Below are positions 5,950-17,460 of a stretch of 64,000 bases of DNA, in pieces. Source of the stretch: Thomasclavelia cocleata. Its GTDB lineage: Bacteria > Bacillota_I > Bacilli_A > Erysipelotrichales > Coprobacillaceae. Both the position numbers and the translations under genes were made by a program. The first letter of the stretch is position 1. Each line of letters opens with the position of its first letter. The DNA is taken from the NCBI RefSeq assembly GCF_900102365.1, contig NZ_FOIN01000001.1, positions 102,064 to 166,063 of the forward strand, given 5' to 3'. The notes beneath the pieces are model-generated. The model was not told the origin of the DNA. It made no database searches and saw nothing but the letters and a program-made list of their open reading frames with translations.

Positions 5950-6009
5950 TACTTTGCTAGTTTACTCTATGTTAACATTAAACTTGAGTTGATGTCAACT
6001 AGCAAAGTA
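5950..6009 (-). promoter_or_regulatory. Operator-flanked promoter of lipoprotein gene
   Basis: Minus-strand -35 TTGACA (5998-5993), 17-bp spacer, -10-like TTAACA. A 16-bp inverted repeat with one mismatch (5950-5965 and 5994-6009, core CTTTGCTAGTT) frames it, and AGTTGA-TG-TCAACT overlaps the -35. The same motif lies at 10385-10407. Confidence 0.65.
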
Positions 6010-6020
6010 GAATTAATTAT

Positions 6021-6052
6021 TAAAAAAGAAGTTCTACTAAAAAACTTCTTTT
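6021..6052 (-). terminator. Intrinsic terminator after 6051-6275 gene
   Basis: Inverted repeat AAAAGAAGTT / AACTTCTTTT with a T6 run on the minus strand. It separates the upstream minus-strand genes from the independently promoted lipoprotein gene and could also work on the plus strand. Confidence 0.75.
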
Positions 6053-8469: not shown

Positions 8470-8552
8470 TACTTTTTTATAAATTATTTAATTATTTTAA
8501 TGAATTATTATATATTAAATTAAATCAATTTATTAAAACGATCAAATATGGT

Positions 8553-8581
8553 TTGACAATTAAATAATACAAGTATATTAT
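8553..8581 (+). promoter_or_regulatory. Sigma-70 type promoter of 8604 gene
   Basis: TTGACA (8553-8558), 17-bp spacer, TATTAT (8576-8581), followed by AGGAGG and the ATG at 8604. Confidence 0.8.
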
Positions 8582-8603
8582 TAATTATAGGAGGTATTAT
8601 ATT

Positions 8604-9146
8604 ATGTCTAAAGAAATTATTTTTAAATATAACAACAATAACCAATTAAAAAAAACTATTAAAGAAATAGCTTTGTATAATGATATTAAAATGTCTAGTA
8701 TAGCTAACAACCTAAACATTAGCAATAGTCAATTAACAAATACTTTAAATAAAAAAAATATTAACTTTAATGATATTAAAAAGATATTAGACGTAGTTGG
8801 ATATGATTTAGTGTTAGAATTTAGACCTAAAGACAACTTTAGTATCAAAAATAAATTACCTGATACAATTAGTATAAATACGAATAACAATATGGAAATC
8901 AACACAGATATTGTTGACGATGATATATTGGCATTGCTAAATGATACAATCAAATATGGCTACAGTGGTATAAACGTTGTAGATAATTGGTTGGAAAATA
9001 ACGGTTACATTATAAATAGCAAGTTGTTTGATAGTGATGGTAAGATATTAGATAATGCTAGAGCGCTATTGGTTAAAGGTGTATCGTTTGGAAAAACCAA
9101 CGAACTAATTAAGAAGAAAGTCTTTATTAAAGATAAGAAGTTGTAG
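8604..9146 (+). CDS. HTH-containing putative regulator next to the origin
   Basis: 180 aa. Residues about 20-72 look like a Cro/XRE-type helix-turn-helix: MSSIANNLNISNSQLTNTLN, then FNDIKKILDVVGYDLVLEF. The rest is acidic and unassigned. It is divergent from the minus-strand operon, with a consensus promoter and AGGAGG site, and is the only gene between the early operon and the non-coding origin-like region. A copy-control or lysis/lysogeny role is plausible from position but not shown. Confidence 0.7.
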   Translation: MSKEIIFKYNNNNQLKKTIKEIALYNDIKMSSIANNLNISNSQLTNTLNKKNINFNDIKKILDVVGYDLVLEFRPKDNFSIKNKLPDTISINTNNNMEINTDIVDDDILALLNDTIKYGYSGINVVDNWLENNGYIINSKLFDSDGKILDNARALLVKGVSFGKTNELIKKKVFIKDKKL

Positions 9147-10380
9147 CCTATGCTAGTATAGTCCTTTTACATGCTATAAGCTATTTATTTAACGTATAAA
9201 GGCTAAAATGATATTATAGTAGGTAAGCTAAGGTATATAGGTAATGTGGCTTAGAATGGAAATATTTGATTTATAGAGTATGTGAGTAGAGATATGATAA
9301 TTGTAATAGTAGATATGCTAATGTAGTAATGTGGATATAGGATACACATAAAAACATAGAGTGATGTAAGCTACATATACAGAAAATATTATAGCAATGT
9401 ACCAATATAACATATTAATGTAATATATTAATGTAGTGCTCCAATATAGTATATTAGTACTATGCTATAGTAATATTACAGTTATAGTAGATAGAGTTAG
9501 TGGGTTAGTTAGATGAATCTGGTTAATTGACTTGATATGGTTGATTGATATGGTTGGTTGGATTGGATATGTAGTGTAATTGACATAACTGTATTAATGT
9601 AATAGTACAGTAGTACAGTTGATAGTGTCAACTAATATAGTCGGTATATAGATATAATTACTACTAAAAGTAGTTTTCGATACCGTTTCTAAGCTGATAC
9701 CAATTAACAACCCTATCATCAACCAGACCAACTCACCAACTCAATAAATTGTATTAAAATCAGTACAATACAATAAATAATACTGTACTACTATAAGTAG
9801 TATGGTATTTTATTTTAGATAACCCGGGGTATATCGAACTTTTCAAGCTATTTAAAACTGCTTAAAATCGCCTATCTACCCCATTTTTCTACCACACGAT
9901 CACCCCAAATTTCACCGACCGATTAAAATTTACTATCCAACAACCATAAAAATCACCCTATTTTAACTTTTTCAAAAAAATACAATTTTGCATCATATTT
10001 GTCCACAAACCTATCGGTAACTTATCGGTATAACTACCTTAAATACCCCTACTTTATTACCATAATCTTCGTATATTCTAACCATAACTATCCAACCATC
10101 TAATTAGCAATTTATTGTATTTTACAATTAATCATTAAATCACCTTTTCACTTTATCCCCTAAACATCCGTATTATCTCCGAAGAACAAAAAGTTGTATA
10201 TTTTGATTTAAAACCGACCTTTAAAATACCTATTTCTATCCTTATTAATATATTGACTTATTTGCGAAATTTTTCAGCATTATTAACAACATTAAAACCT
10301 AATTTACCGAATCGGTATATCCGAACCTGAAATAGTCAAATTTTAAATCCCAAAAAATCAAACTTGCAATTTTGATATAT
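9147..10380. other. Non-coding, strand-biased region with hairpin axis (candidate origin)
   Basis: No genes. The left part is G-rich and C-poor on the plus strand (9241-9300: 16 G, 1 C). The right part is the reverse (9901-9960: 2 G, 20 C). The change occurs at about 9640-9690, where CGGTAT (9642-9647) pairs with ATACCG (9680-9685) around the hairpin ACTACT-AAA-AGTAGT (9660-9674). Left and right arms share degenerate TGGTTGRT-like words in inverted orientation. Such a sharp switch fits an origin or terminus of replication. Confidence 0.6.
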
Positions 10381-10384
10381 TTTT

Positions 10385-10424
10385 TACTTTGCTAGTTGAC
10401 ATCAACTTATATTTAGTGTATAGT
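10385..10424 (+). promoter_or_regulatory. Operator-bearing promoter upstream of replication leader
   Basis: TTGACA (10396-10401), 17-bp spacer, TATAGT (10419-10424). The operator TACTTTGCTAGTT begins at 10385, and AGTTGA-CA-TCAACT overlaps the -35. A variant inverted half-site, ACTTAGCAAAGTAG, lies at 10486-10499. The first 23 bp match the lipoprotein promoter at 5950-6009. Confidence 0.75.
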
Positions 10425-10439
10425 GATTGTAGTAACGAT

Positions 10440-10679
10440 AGCTGGATTGTTTTTCAGTCCAGTTTAAATTCAAATATATAATGTTACTTAGCAAAGTAGA
10501 TATTAGCTTATTAAATCAATTTTAAGAAACGTTTTATTGATTTGTGACTATTTATACCTATTCAATTAAATGTTTCTTAGAATTAAAATATAAGCCATAT
10601 TTAGATATATGACTATTTTGGTGATGACATATATATTTGATATGAATAATTACTAAATCTAATCGAAAGGAGAAATATT
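10440..10679 (+). ncRNA. Structured untranslated leader
   Basis: Downstream of the promoter the RNA can form CTGGATTG/CAGTCCAG (10442-10462), AAATCAAT/ATTGATTT, TAAGAAAC (10523-10530) with GTTTCTTA (10572-10579) and ATATATG/CATATAT. The second and third overlap, so alternative folds are possible. No ORF is present. Confidence 0.45.
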
Positions 10680-10694
10680 ATGAATACAGGTTAA
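10680..10694 (+). CDS. Four-codon microORF (MNTG) behind a strong RBS
   Basis: AAAGGAG at 10666-10672 is well spaced from ATG 10680, yet the frame is only MNTG followed by TAA. It lies at the end of the structured leader, upstream of the GC-rich hairpins. It may be a leader peptide or ribosome-loading site, or the stump of a lost gene. Confidence 0.35.
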   Translation: MNTG

Positions 10695-10790
10695 TCTATT
10701 ACAATAATTCAATCTATCTTAATTTATGATATGGTTATCTACTGTCATCCTACTCAGTAATTAACAAGATAGCAGAAAATATAATACGTC

Positions 10791-11001
10791 CAATCCCGAA
10801 TCGAGTTTACGTCAGTAAACGACGATAAGGGTTGGCGAGCGCCGAGCACGTTAGTGCGAAGGTAAGACAAGTGAAGCGCAGCGAAACGATTCTCTTTCTG
10901 TTCTTTTTGAAAGGGTAAAAGCATTCTCTGTGCGCCCCCATATAACAATTTGTATCTATTTCATTTATTTTAAGAGGCAAGGGTACGCCAGTAACCGCCT
11001 C
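10791..11001 (+). other. GC-rich hairpin cluster upstream of the initiator gene
   Basis: Bases about 10791-10945 are far richer in G+C than the surroundings. They hold GTTTAC-GTCA-GTAAAC (10805-10820), GGC-GAGC-GCC (10834-10843) and GCAC-GTTA-GTGC (10846-10857), then a GCGCAGCGAAACG-type stretch. A further hairpin, GAGGC...GCCTC with loop GCCA, lies at 10974-11001. Compact four-base loops suggest a functional RNA or a single-strand initiation (primosome/lagging strand) site. Confidence 0.5.
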
Positions 11002-11069
11002 GAATATCTCATTTATATTGAAAGTAACAAAAAGATTATATTTGTATATTTAATTTGGCATTACATTTG

Positions 11070-11159
11070 AATAAAAAATATTTACTTTTTGCCAAGCGAG
11101 GTATAAAAAATATTAACCTTTTGTCTTAATTTAAGTATAAAAAATATTAACTTATTGTC
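11070..11159 (+). repeat. Three iterons next to the initiator gene
   Basis: Copies begin at 11070, 11101 and 11135: consensus GTATAAAAAATATTAAC followed by YTWTTGYC, the first copy being diverged. They are spaced 31-34 bp, about three helical turns, and end right at the ribosome binding site of the next gene. Initiator-binding iterons of plasmids have this arrangement. Confidence 0.75.
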
Positions 11160-11175
11160 AAAAAGGAGGAAATCA

Positions 11176-11955
11176 ATAATAAAAGATCAAACAAAAAAAG
11201 ATAATTTCATAATCATTCCCAAACATATTATTCAAGAAGGTGTCAAAAATAATATTTACTTAATGACTTACATTTATCTTATGTATAGAAAAAATGGCAA
11301 TGACGGTGTTGAATTTTCAAAAAAATCGTATTATTCGTTTATGGGAATAAAAAAGCCACAATTAAAAAAACAAGCTGATATTATTTTGGGTGATATATTA
11401 GAAAAATACAGCAATGCAATTATTAATATTGTTGATTTGAGTTTAAACGACTTAATTAACATTAAGCTCAATGTTGTAGATAGTAAAAAAAAATTTAAGG
11501 AATTGCATCCTGAAAAAAATGTATTTAAATTTGCTAAAATATATTTTGACGAAATAGATTTAATTATTGAGCAGGAAAAAAAATCTGAATTATCAGTATC
11601 AGCAAAAAAAATATTCCTATTCTTATCCTACCATCGCCTAAAGATGATTAAAAGAAATGGCGCCTTAGTAGAAACAGCTCCTGAAATTTCATATTTTCGT
11701 ATAAATGATTTATCAGAACAGATAAATATAAGTATGCGAACTATATCACGTATGCTTAAAATCTTAAGCGATATTAAAATTATCAAGACTAATCAAACAA
11801 AAACATTAAAAATCCCAGACACCACTTTTTTTATCAAGGGGTATATCATCGTGGCGGATTACCATTCTCGGGATATTAAATACTCAGCAGAAGAAAATCT
11901 CAAATATGGTGTTGAGTATGTAAATAACAAACTGAACGAAAGGAGGAAATTATAG
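11176..11955 (+). CDS. Replication initiator-like protein (ATA start)
   Basis: 259 aa if begun at ATA 11176 (or ATA 11179), which is correctly spaced after AAGGAGG. A TTG at 11155 would put the ribosome binding site inside the gene. The N-terminus has FIIIPKHIIQEGVKNNIYLMTYIYLMYRK. A winged-helix-like segment (ISYFRINDLSEQINISMRTISRMLKILSDI) lies in the C-terminal half. Iterons directly upstream support a role as replication initiator or replisome organiser of a phage-plasmid. No helicase or primase motif is present. The stop overlaps the next start by 1 bp. Confidence 0.65.
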   Translation: MIKDQTKKDNFIIIPKHIIQEGVKNNIYLMTYIYLMYRKNGNDGVEFSKKSYYSFMGIKKPQLKKQADIILGDILEKYSNAIINIVDLSLNDLINIKLNVVDSKKKFKELHPEKNVFKFAKIYFDEIDLIIEQEKKSELSVSAKKIFLFLSYHRLKMIKRNGALVETAPEISYFRINDLSEQINISMRTISRMLKILSDIKIIKTNQTKTLKIPDTTFFIKGYIIVADYHSRDIKYSAEENLKYGVEYVNNKLNERRKL

Positions 11956-13188: not shown

Positions 13189-14322
13189 ATAGCCGTTTAT
13201 TTAGATAACGCTGCTAAGAGTAAGCCTAAAAAAGAGGTCTTGGACGTTATCGTTAAATCATTACACGAAGACTGGTATAACCCCTCTTCTCTTTACCATC
13301 CTGCCCAGGAGGTAAAAAAGAAACTTGAAGATGCCAGGTCAGTGATTGCAAAAAGGGTTAATTGTAGTCCTGAAGAAATTATATTTACTTCAAGCGGTAG
13401 TGAAGCTAATAATTTAGCATTAAGATGCTATACAAACTCAGAAAATAAAGCTCATTTTATTTTAGCTGATCCTACTTCACATAAATCGGTTATCAAAAAC
13501 AATTATTATTGGTCACTTGAAGTTGATAGTAATGGGGTTATTAATTTAAAATCATTAGAAAGCAAGCTTGCGAATACACATAACATACAATCTTACAAAA
13601 TTGTATCAGTATGTGGAGCTAACAATGAAATTGGAACAATTCAGCCGATTAAAGAAATTTCAAAACTATGCCATAAACACGATATAATATTTCATGTTGA
13701 TGCAGTTCAACTGATTGCCGATAAGAAGATTGATGTTAAAGAGCTAGGAATAGATTTAATGAGTGTATCAGGTTCTAAAATCGGATGCCCTTCTGGAATT
13801 GGTTTTCTTTATGTTAAAAAAGGTATATCTGTAACCCCTTTAATACAAGGTGAACAGGAAAAAAGTATGCGTGGTGGCACAGAAAACATACCGTATATAC
13901 TTGGACTCTCAAAGGCAGTAGAATTGTTAAATTATTCAAAATCTAATCATTTAAAAAGTTTAAGAGATTATTTTATTAATAAACTCCTAATATTGCCTAA
14001 TACATATCTAATTGGAGCAAATGGTAATGACAGATTATCCAATAATATAAATATCTGTTTTCATGGCATCGAAGCAGAATCACTGTTATCGTATTTAAAT
14101 CTATATGAAATCTATGCATCTGGTGGTTCTGCCTGCAACAGTAAAAATTTAGAAGCAAGTCACGTTTTAAAAGCAATAAGACTGCCTGAAGACGACCTTC
14201 ATAGCTGTATCAGATTTTCGTTAAACGAAGATAGTACAGTTGATGAACTTGAAGAAGCTTTTGAAGTAATTCAAAGATTCGTAATAAGACAAAATTTTTA
14301 TAATGGTGGTGACGCTTCTTAG
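13189..14322 (+). CDS. Cysteine desulfurase (NifS/IscS family, ATA start)
   Basis: 377 aa. PLP-dependent fold type I enzyme that removes sulfur from cysteine. N-terminal AVYLDNAAKSKP, substrate/PLP region SSGSEANNLALR, lysine in VSGSKIGCPSGIG (usual His-Lys is Ser-Lys here), GGTENIPYILG, and the active-site loop YASGGSACNSK with the catalytic Cys all present. A TAA stop at 13183-13185 and the conserved YLDNAA force initiation at ATA 13189, 7 nt after AAAGGAGG. The stop overlaps the polymerase start (TAGTG). It could supply sulfur for tRNA or DNA modification, but no partner (dnd, thiI or tus-like genes) is visible here. Confidence 0.85.
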   Translation: MAVYLDNAAKSKPKKEVLDVIVKSLHEDWYNPSSLYHPAQEVKKKLEDARSVIAKRVNCSPEEIIFTSSGSEANNLALRCYTNSENKAHFILADPTSHKSVIKNNYYWSLEVDSNGVINLKSLESKLANTHNIQSYKIVSVCGANNEIGTIQPIKEISKLCHKHDIIFHVDAVQLIADKKIDVKELGIDLMSVSGSKIGCPSGIGFLYVKKGISVTPLIQGEQEKSMRGGTENIPYILGLSKAVELLNYSKSNHLKSLRDYFINKLLILPNTYLIGANGNDRLSNNINICFHGIEAESLLSYLNLYEIYASGGSACNSKNLEASHVLKAIRLPEDDLHSCIRFSLNEDSTVDELEEAFEVIQRFVIRQNFYNGGDAS

Positions 14323-16127
14323 TGCCATCTATAAAAGATGGGGTATATATCCTTGGTTTAGATGCGAAGGATATATATCTAGCAAATTACAATAATGGCT
14401 GCATAGGATATAACCCAAGAAACAGTGCAGGAAATTTAAACACAGTTAAGTTTTTAAATAAGCTTGATTATTCACTTGATTTAATCAAATTGGTTGATGT
14501 TTATAAAACAACATATCGAAATAACAAGCTAACTTTCGAGGAAAACAATAAATTATACTCTCAGAGAGTTATTAATGTAAGATTTAAATACTCAGTTAAA
14601 GAATATAATCGCTATTATGGGGATGTTTGGGTTAAATTTGGATATGATTTAAATAAGGTTATAAATAAAATAGATGATCATATTTATATTGAAAATGGTG
14701 AGATTATTGCTATAGATACCAAAAAAGGTGTCAAAAATCCCCTATCAAAAAAAGAATTAGGTCGCTGGTTTCATTATAATCCACAAAAAAACAAATATTC
14801 AGTCTATGATTACAAACTTCATACAATAAAAAATGTTAGACAGTTAAGAGATGAATTATACAGCAAAGGGTTTTACTGTGATGGGATTAAATTCACAAGA
14901 TTTAAGCGTTCATCTGGCTCAGCCAGAGTTGGAAAATGTTTGTTTATTGATGAACAATTGTACCCTAGAATGCATAAATGGGAATTGTGTAAACTTAAAG
15001 TTAATCAAGGAGATGAAGTTGATTTAGCAGCTCTAGAAGCCTATATAGCGCTTACTTTATCATCTATAATAGATACTATTGAAATAGATCCCAAGAGTAT
15101 TCTTGTAATAAACGACTATGAAAGTGAATTTGAAGAAGATGTTATTGAAACAAGGTTAGTTAATGGAGAACTTGTTACAAAGCCAAACAGAATCACATTA
15201 AAAAATAGCATTTGGGATGGACAGTCATTGATGGATGTCTCGCTGTTTGGTAAATATGAGAACAAAGGAATGTTACTGCTAAGAAACCAGTTCTTTAAAT
15301 CGTGCTGTTTTAACTGCAATATTCAAAAATGGTTCAAAGATAACGGAATAACATCATTAGACCAATTGAATGGCAAGACAATCGCTGATGATATTAGTCA
15401 GATCAAGCTAATTACTACGCCAAGCAGTATTAAATATTTAAAGTTTGGAACATTAAAAAAATGGTTAAGAGCCATCTCGCCTACTTTTGGTGTAGTTAAA
15501 CATGAAAAGAAAACTCATTATTTAAATGGCAAAGTTGTAAGGTGTCATTATCAATTGATAAATTCATTACAAATGACAAAAAAAGAAGTTGAAGAATTGG
15601 TTAAACCATCATTGGAGTATCTTGATTTGATAAAAAGTGATCCAGCGGTGTTAAGACAATATATTAGGTATTCTAACGATATCAATCTCGACAATGAACC
15701 ACTAATATATCAAAATGATATAACGTACAAGCTATTGGGATTAAATGATAAGTTTACTGAAACTGAAATGTACGCAATTTTAAAAAAACAAATTGTAGAT
15801 TCCTATAAAAATAATCTAAGAGAAGGTCATTTATTTGTTAACGGTAACTATTCGACTATATGTGGCAATCCGATTGAAATGTTACAACATTCAATTGGAA
15901 AATTTAACGGTGAATCTCAAATAGGTGTTGGTAAAATACACACAACTAGATTCAAATACAATAAAACAATTCTTGGATCAAGAAGCCCCCACATTTGCCA
16001 ATGTAATATTTGGCTACCTCTCAACTCTTCTAATAAAGAAATTGATAAATATATGAATACAACTGATGAAATAGTTTATGTAAACAGCATTAAAGAATCA
16101 ACACTTGATCGTCTGAGCGGTGCGGAT
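14322..16127 (+). CDS. Putative phage RNA polymerase (double-psi beta-barrel type), exon 1
   Basis: 602 codons from GTG 14322, stopping at a TAA only because of the intron. The spliced protein would be 932 aa. The last residues are GSRSPHICQCNIWLPLN, then IVYVNSIKESTLDRLSGAD. Joined to exon 2 they form LSGADFDSDTVMITDN, which resembles the DFDGD catalytic loop of two-barrel RNA polymerases (cellular beta-prime, YonO of SP-beta, QDE-1-like). I recall similar large unannotated proteins in Bacillota phages. If correct it polymerises RNA and may serve late transcription. The second Gly of DFDGD is Ser here. An alternative is a helicase/primase-like protein, but no Walker motif is seen. Confidence 0.6.
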
Positions 16128-16467
16128 TAACCATAATAAGTCCGCCTTGAGTAGTAATATTCAAGTAAAAAGATTTGTGAACCTAGAAATCTAGGGTGTT
16201 TACTATTAAAATAGTAAGCTAACGAAGAATTTCCATTCATTAAAATGTTTGGATAATATCGTGCCAAGCATAAAGAGAAATCTTTATGAAGGTGTAACGA
16301 CTAGTGGAAACAGCCTTAACTGGTTAGACCACGTACATTTAAGGTGAAATTCCTTATTTGGAAGCGCAAGTCAGCCCTAACGCATATTTCGAGGGCTAAT
16401 GAGATAGTCTACTCCCTACTTTCAATGAAAAGTAATTTAAAATATCTGGTAACAGAGGGTGTTATGG
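16128..16467 (+). ncRNA. Group I intron in the polymerase gene
   Basis: 340 nt without ORF. Exon GCGGAT (16122-16127) pairs with guide GTCCGC (16140-16145) with U-G at the splice site. P7 halves are GACTA (16299-16303, in AACGACTAG) and TAGTC (16405-16409, in GATAGTCTACTCC). The intron ends in G at 16467. Removal joins GCG GAT to TTT GAT TCA GAC and restores a continuous frame through the Asp motif. Confidence 0.85.
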
Positions 16468-17460
16468 TTTGATTCAGACACAGTAATGATTACTGATAAT
16501 CCGATATTAATCAAAGCTGGAAGAAAAAATTATTCAAATTTTAAAGTATCAATAAATAATGTTGAGGCAAAAAAAATCAAAAGATATTATACAGCGAAGC
16601 AAAAATCAGATCTTGATTATAAAACTTCTAAAAATCAAATCGGAGTAATAATTAATTTATCGCAAGAACTAAATTCAAAAGTTTGGAATAAACTGAACAA
16701 TGGTGGACTGATAAATGAAATTCAACAAATATATCATGATACATGTCAGTTAAATGTAATGTCAAATATAGAAATAGATGCAGCAAAAAAAGAATTTGAT
16801 GTTGCAATGAGCAAAGAAATTGAGTGTATTCGAAGCAGATACAAGGAGGAAACATGGGATAATAAAACGGTTAAACCGTATTTTTTTGGAGTAATAGTAA
16901 AAAACAAAAGCTTTTACAATTGTAAAAAAATAGGTAAAAAAATCAAATATAAAAAAATGGACACTTCAATGGACTATTTGGAATGTGCTATAAACAACTG
17001 GAAACCCATAAGAAAAGAATATGGGAAAACATACTGTCATTTTTATGAAATTATTGACAAGTCATCATATGACAATAGTAAGGTTAATAGGAAGCAAATA
17101 GCTAAAATTATGTCAGAAATTAGGAAATTCGATTCAACAACCAAATATTTATTTTCAAAAACAAATTTTGATCATAGTATAAAAACAGCTTATTATCTTA
17201 TACAAAGAGAAAAAGTAATAAGATTTATTGGTCAGCTAAAATTAAATAAAAGTACCATAATTTATATCTTAAAAAAATTTGACACCGATGAATATAGAAA
17301 ATATTATAAAACATTGTTTAAGGTTCTTTTTGGTTATCCCAATTTAAGTTTTTATGAAGCTATAAAAAAAAGCAAGCTTCCTATTGAAGATTTACATGAA
17401 AGCGAAGATGGTAAAATAAATATTTTAGGCTATATTTTTTCAAAAAAATGCAATTTTTAG
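16468..17460 (+). CDS. Putative phage RNA polymerase, exon 2
   Basis: 330 residues after splicing. Starts FDSDTVMITDNPILIKAG, completing the Asp-rich loop, then KRYYTAKQKSDLDYKTSKNQIGVIINLSQELN, a segment conserved with the exon 1 neighbourhood in the homologues I remember. The rest is lysine-rich. The upstream GTG at 16459 belongs to the intron and is not a start. Downstream comes the metallophosphoesterase gene on the same strand. Confidence 0.6.
   Translation, partial: FDSDTVMITDNPILIKAGRKNYSNFKVSINNVEAKKIKRYYTAKQKSDLDYKTSKNQIGVIINLSQELNSKVWNKLNNGGLINEIQQIYHDTCQLNVMSNIEIDAAKKEFDVAMSKEIECIRSRYKEETWDNKTVKPYFFGVIVKNKSFYNCKKIGKKIKYKKMDTSMDYLECAINNWKPIRKEYGKTYCHFYEIIDKSSYDNSKVNRKQIAKIMSEIRKFDSTTKYLFSKTNFDHSIKTAYYLIQREKVIRFIGQLKLNKSTIIYILKKFDTDEYRKYYKTLFKVLFGYPNLSFYEAIKKSKLPIEDLHESEDGKINILGYIFSKKCNF

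Follow-up and report, generated by a model that had tools for sequence, protein, structure and literature searches.

According to PMC4081077, two-winged-helix plasmid Rep proteins bind iterons as well as one strand of the melted DUE. The iteron plasmid origins with RepE (mini-F), TrfA (RK2) and pi (R6K) place an initiator fold beside noncoding direct repeats, and the locus described here has a comparable layout with a predicted initiator. In contrast to the iteron plasmids, it lies in phages of ~96–136 kb and has a G-rich/C-rich switch of more than 1 kb and a two-box site. GC-skewed noncoding DNA is also found at the lytic origins EBV oriLyt and T4 oriF, which involve R-loops or G-rich transcripts. 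Our locus shares this feature, but in our case the two arms run toward each other at the site, and inward promoters were hardly ever found.

To our knowledge, little is known of where large temperate Firmicutes phages start replication. In the literature searched, an origin of this kind was not found described for SPbeta-like and related large temperate Firmicutes phages, the portal and PolIII-alpha of which are homologous to ours. The Thomasclavelia phages TR-TP1 and TR-TP2 have divergent arms and a phrog_8308 gene, as here. TR-TP2 shows a noncoding gap of 2.46 kb, in which a very G-rich block is oriented as here, but its two-box score is not top-ranked; TR-TP1 lacks the switch, unlike this prophage. 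The gap of TR-TP2 (L072:44440-46900, record 95639-98099) contains 61 C/5 G in 150 bp, and TR-TP1 is without such a gap.

The central gap and its strand switch

The window, i.e. the whole analysed stretch of 64,000 nucleotides (C48:102064-166063), covers part of a prophage of ~96 kb, which extends from about C48:70,490, where a tyrosine integrase adjoins host lepA, to an estimated right end at about 166 kb. A record of 96,042 bp in IMG/VR is the same prophage, and a second record of 129,706 bp is 99.9% alike. In the IMG/VR twin 2574179769_000003, ~34 kb of additional sequence are present near window position ~440 with a flanking duplication of ~0.7 kb, which is either an insertion or an assembly join (window ~440-1110; L044, L023, L098, L099).

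Left of the gap nearly all genes point leftward, including those for PolIII alpha, a DnaB-like helicase, a RecD-like helicase and a class III ribonucleotide reductase. The genes to its right, which include terminase, portal and endolysin, point rightward apart from a few. The position of the gap in this divergent phage is central, with the replication genes leading away to the left and the late genes to the right. On its left it is bordered by a plus-strand gene for a 180-aa protein of the Cro/C1-type HTH kind (8604–9146; weak HTH_26 and phrog_1468 matches). An earlier note on this DNA had reported 1.2 kb without genes, and the gene-free stretch is even longer: 9147–11154 (~2 kb) is free of ORFs of at least 70 aa and holds only a 64-aa ORF at 10754–10948. 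When the gap, the HTH ORF and the 266-aa ORF on the right were compared with phages, plasmids and genome collections at the DNA and protein level, only identical or near-identical IMG/VR twins matched, and a terminase search of genome-collection contigs found no relative.

The gap consists of a G-rich, C-poor noncoding arm (9147–9690, plus strand) and a C-rich, G-poor noncoding arm (9691–10380, plus strand), as defined by base counts and a skew scan of the contig. Four 60-nt counts of the earlier note proved exact on recount: the plus strand contains 16 G/1 C in 9241–9300, 16 G/2 C in 9541–9600, 2 G/20 C in 9901–9960 and 3 G/15 C in 10021–10080. Altogether 104 G/38 C in 9147–9660 stand against 54 G/157 C in 9661–10380 on the plus strand (Fisher 5e-19). 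The 239,444-bp contig was scanned for plus-to-minus changes of skew with equal half-windows throughout. The change at the switch was 0.98, the top value of the contig, and the runner-up (0.62) sits at convergent genes. The switch itself held rank 7 of 23,805 scan positions, the top peak belonging to the same locus. Ordinary compositional noise, for which it might be said that the contig has a single such locus, has to account for the top peak of the whole scan and for the return of the switch at the same gene-order position in relatives, by which it is in the main already refuted. Decayed or recoded genes left no coding signal and no long frame in the gap, even with TAG read as Q. We regard noise or gene decay as an exceedingly improbable origin of the switch.

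The turn had been placed at about 9640, on a hairpin. This hairpin exists (CGGTAT at 9642, ATACCG at 9680, inner ACTACT-AAA-AGTAGT; 9642–9685), but the local maximum of the cumulative skew is at 9682 and not at 9640. The single-strand DNA fold of 9620–9710 is ordinary compared with shuffles (z −0.44), the small hairpin not being unusually stable. What relatives keep is a two-box site, weak here (9825–9900) and located ~140 bp to the right of the hairpin, and not the CGGTAT hairpin.

The polarity of the arms had also been used as an argument for an origin. This argument does not hold, because G-rich on the left and C-rich on the right is the polarity of a terminus: the local turn at the site is from plus to minus, not from minus to plus as expected of an origin. 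Across the whole phage the plus strand is C-rich left of the centre and G-rich right of it, as at an ordinary origin; within the gap, the skew has the opposite sign on either side. In 9/9 phage records of 96–136 kb the site was located 1.3–3.5 kb from the minimum of the circular detrended cumulative GC skew and 37–59 kb from the maximum. Our own record was among these nine, its site having been placed manually at 9824. In all nine records the flanking skew was negative to the left of the site and positive to its right, with diverging genes, and the 600 bp next to it were positive on the left in 8/9 and negative on the right in 9/9. As the genome-wide skew follows gene orientation, the minimum may mark only the divergence. 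With regard to the cumulative skew of the whole element, which the earlier note had expected to turn in the gap, a minimum is indeed found nearby, but the turn lies ~1 kb to the left (window ~8540-8766).

Recurrence in relatives and the two-box site

The first relatives were found by the portal protein, and the gene that their neighbourhoods share is phrog_8308. It may be RNA polymerase-like, as suggested by a DFDGD motif in TR-TP1 gp3. An alignment search of IMG/VR with phrog_8308 yielded 128 loci, 80 of which were kept. Upstream sequence of at least 1500 bp was available and scanned for 65 of these 80, giving 54 clusters besides the window, and the 15 loci with short upstream sequence were dropped. 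A plus-to-minus switch of at least 0.55 was present upstream in 30 of the 54 dereplicated clusters, 1.7–9.5 kb before phrog_8308; in 24 it was below 0.55. The 52 clusters with enough downstream sequence were split by phrog_8308 identity to the phage record G067. At 60–100% identity the switch occurred upstream in 9/10 and downstream in 0/10 clusters, at 52–60% in 16/22 and 0/22, and at 40–52% in 4/20 and 2/20. For the range of 52–100% this means 25/32 upstream versus 0/32 downstream. The central gap of G067 (111 kb) shows 88 G/6 C followed by 8 G/82 C, a change of 1.19, and the same switch with a change of 0.85 is present in the central gap of G068 (126 kb). It is absent from TR-TP1, pCD1602_4 and G066. 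Homology of our arms to the G-rich block of TR-TP2 was not significant (6/100 shuffles reached the score), nor was homology to a leftward G-rich stretch of TR-TP1/2. The locus represents a central site that is polar and strand-asymmetric and that recurs across a broad group of phages, beside a RepE-fold protein family.

A common plus-strand word was read at the switches and converted into an iterated weight matrix starting from five typed seeds, which was searched within about 900–1000 bp of each switch. The resulting Box A (GGGGGnnnnTTTACATTTT) scored above 14 in 27 of the 30 strong-switch loci, the exceptions being L115, L120 and L150; TR-TP2 scores 18. When whole loci were scanned, the best match was at the switch in 26/27 (tie in L102). 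It was the sole match of at least 14 in 21/27 loci, always on the phrog_8308 strand. Among the 24 clusters that lack a strong switch, 17 gave no Box A match. A second element, Box B (~TATCTGTTCCATCCACAC), follows about 47–49 nt after Box A in a nearly gapless alignment of 28 sites (the 27 Box A loci and L143). These sites are at most 100 bp from the switch in 19/28 and at most 300 bp in 27/28 cases. The two-box score ranked the site first in its own locus in 28/28 leave-out tests, with the site and near copies removed from training, a result that is not fully independent since the sites were pre-picked by Box A. Among 12 whole records, Box A with 0–1 mismatch occurred exactly once in six (G070, G072, G073, G074, G079, G080); with 3 mismatches allowed, matches were at background level.

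In the window, a divergent Box A (CGGGGTATATCGAACTTTT; 9825–9843) and a divergent Box B (CCTATCTACCCCAT...CCACACGA; 9870–9900) were assigned on the plus strand. A two-box profile built from relatives only ranks 9825 (+) first in the 95.8-kb prophage on both strands, with 6.3 bits followed by 5.8 for the next position. The score is weak compared to 21–58 bits for the six training members tabulated, and Box A alone scores poorly (−0.2). A search of the window with the 28-site profile by nhmmer gave a match at 9840–9884, rank 2 in 64 kb, at E 4.4, and the fixed-spacing two-box score was devised after this result. By chance alone, the top position would lie no more than 300 bp from the switch, on the strand in question, in about 0.3% of cases (600 of 191,600). 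Window 9825–9900 is taken as a divergent member of the two-box site family.

That most loci have just one such site, polar and on the late-gene strand, would also agree with a packaging start (cos/pac) or a site-specific resolution site, with Box A as the cut or recombination site. Our terminase is ~10 kb off, however, the integrase sits at the far end of the prophage, and the neighbouring gene has an initiator fold, which makes this explanation highly improbable.

The predicted RepE-like gene and the adjacent repeats

Directly to the right of the gap, a plus-strand gene (11155–11955) encodes a 266-aa protein assigned to a RepE-like initiator family with two predicted winged-helix domains, the fold being modelled on its G067 homologue. 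Over 173 aa the protein is 24% identical (E 1e-10) to a 282-aa ORF that adjoins the site in G067, and it is homologous to the first ORF right of the site in nine relatives (E 6e-9 to 3e-4). Including ours, homologous genes were found in only 10 loci; elsewhere the first ORF on the right belongs to other families.

Modelling of the G067 member with 10 aligned sequences resulted in a pLDDT of 87.7 and a pTM of 0.89, and the single-sequence model of our own 266-aa protein was poor (pLDDT 38). In a Foldseek search with the G067 model, ranks 1–29 were all replication initiator entries (RepE54, Rep-DUE ssDNA complexes, pi, RctB), the top matches having E values from 6e-4 and TM scores of 0.33–0.42 on the query. 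VIA-align gave a Z of 10.4 over 190 residues for RepE and of 9.2 for pi. The G067 model predicts two winged-helix domains in the RepE arrangement (RepE/pi fold) for this family. Pfam Rep_3 was not among the matches listed (25 families) for the 10 members, which hit only general HTH/winged-helix models. Unlike the iteron plasmids, the locus has no DnaA boxes (TTATNCACA) within ±700 bp of the window site, and a Rep_3 match was not found for the 266-aa protein itself.

Three iteron-like direct repeats of 25 nt, 32–34 nt apart and 84–100% identical to the reference copy, are located directly before the putative initiator gene (11069–11159, plus strand). Repeated 11-mers were enriched in 21/28 site regions (15 shuffles each). 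Within ±700 bp of the window site 12 repeats were counted, versus a shuffle maximum of 12, and A+T beside it is not raised (0.71 vs 0.71 for the prophage). In the Clostridioides phage pCD1602_4, 11-bp tandem repeats (AGACATCATTC) are found at L058:4476-4563 in a 2.5-kb central gap at the skew minimum.

Transcription and the candidate origin

Besides the hairpin at the turn, a second hairpin of 14 pairs with the same ACTACT/AGTAGT core is present at 9779–9809 and is terminator-like on the plus strand. Fold prediction showed 9481–9850 to be more stable than shuffles on both strands. Either a pair of convergent noncoding RNAs, whose G-rich transcripts would meet at the hairpins, or a single large RNA with structure would fit this better-than-shuffled folding of 9481–9820, the terminator-like hairpin and the convergent genes at the contig's next strongest plus-to-minus switch. 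The right arm, however, was no more structured than shuffles, and no Rfam family was found above threshold. RNAalifold predicted 0 base pairs in the 28-site alignment, which points to a DNA site rather than an RNA. A survey of promoter motifs scoring 11–12 of 12 around the 28 sites revealed 13 leftward and 5 rightward promoters at −1000 to −500 from the site, 4 rightward and 1 leftward at +500 to +1000, and few in between. This mostly outward orientation argues against two converging transcripts, and an RNA-based explanation is very unlikely. Prediction also indicated less structure on the right plus strand in 25/28 and on the left minus strand in 21/28 sites, with a mean strand difference of 0.7 kcal per 100 nt. 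As this is no larger than in control windows, the idea that the lagging-template strands are unstructured was dropped. For the suggestion of the earlier note that opposite strands stay single-stranded, the predicted difference between the strands is likewise small.

In the window, a sigma-A-like promoter (TTGACA-17-TATAGT; 10396–10424, plus strand) points outward to the right and is overlapped by an operator repeat (whole element 10386–10424). It is followed by the predicted structured leader of the rightward operon (10431–10680, plus strand), the stability of which was reached by 0/100 shuffles. The switch could be a hub of regulation where the early and late operons diverge, with operators and repressor or antirepressor sites but no replication role, its base composition being shaped by regulatory RNA or protein binding. 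Its place between the HTH gene and a promoter with an operator of which the prophage has two further copies would agree with this, as would the outward promoters on both flanks in relatives. Nevertheless, such a hub leaves more than 1 kb of extreme strand asymmetry without explanation, and likewise the two-box site at nearly fixed spacing across very divergent phages and the RepE-fold neighbour. We consider it unlikely.

With a switch that recurs in distant relatives and a neighbouring gene resembling plasmid initiators, the locus is probably where copying of the phage DNA starts. The candidate origin of the earlier note is retained here on the grounds of the nearby skew minimum, the divergence of the arms, the RepE-fold family and the recurrence, and not of the polarity that had been put forward for it. 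We believe it probable that a large temperate phage uses the gap 9147–11160 as its replication origin, served by an initiator with the RepE/pi fold. The best reading of sequence and models is a candidate RepE-like system with a new cis-architecture.

Such an origin would be used when the excised phage genome is copied. The putative initiator (gene 11155–11955) would bind the repeats of the gap and open the DNA near the switch, and replisomes would leave both ways along the co-oriented gene arms. Box A, ~47 nt and Box B would mark the switch, the boxes possibly being the site of DNA opening or helicase loading. The G-rich left and C-rich right arms lie between outward promoters and keep their polarity in distant relatives, and the strand asymmetry may be functional. 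One may speculate that loading takes place on the C-rich strand that leads outward on either side; the predicted structure differences (25/28 and 21/28) point in this direction but are no larger than in controls. More tentatively, and with some doubt, the locus might stand for an undescribed class of viral origin in which the strand asymmetry itself works: arms reversed relative to the genome would converge on a polar two-box site and, with a RepE-fold initiator, set the direction of helicase loading, and forks would leave along the divergent operons. If an origin is indeed located here, a two-box signature that is short enough to search for, at a switch of reversed skew and with a plasmid-type initiator next to it, would indicate the replication start of many uncultured gut phages at once, phage and plasmid replication would be linked, and local skew could oppose the genome-wide rule at a real origin, which would be a warning for skew-based assignments.

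Several further features of the prophage were observed. The leader of the rightward operon (about 10431–10700) has a z of −6 to −7 versus shuffles. At its end lies a reading frame of 4 codons that has a good ribosome site (near 10680–10695), perhaps an attenuator. The promoter/operator word ACTTTGCTAGTTGACATCAA occurs in three copies in the prophage (window 10386–10408, plus strand, and 5975–6025, minus strand; C48:87666-87708, minus strand) and again on two other contigs of the same genome (C37:10932 and 10378; C73:12428). It was not found in 42 other genomes of the family and looks like a shared operator of phages or mobile elements. An AAA_24/Sak4-like gene of the prophage (L006:17369-19561, minus strand) contains homing-endonuclease and Hint-like domains, an apparent intein. 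Early in the rightward operon, window 13240–14322 carries a gene for a cysteine desulfurase-like class-V aminotransferase. The phrog_8308 protein encoded next to it (window 14322–17460, plus strand) is seemingly split by a 328-bp gap of higher GC content (16131–16458) into an N part (14322–16130) and a continuation (16459–17460). Since the ORF after this gap starts with a D-x-D-like motif, an intron or another insertion in the RNA-polymerase-like gene is possible.
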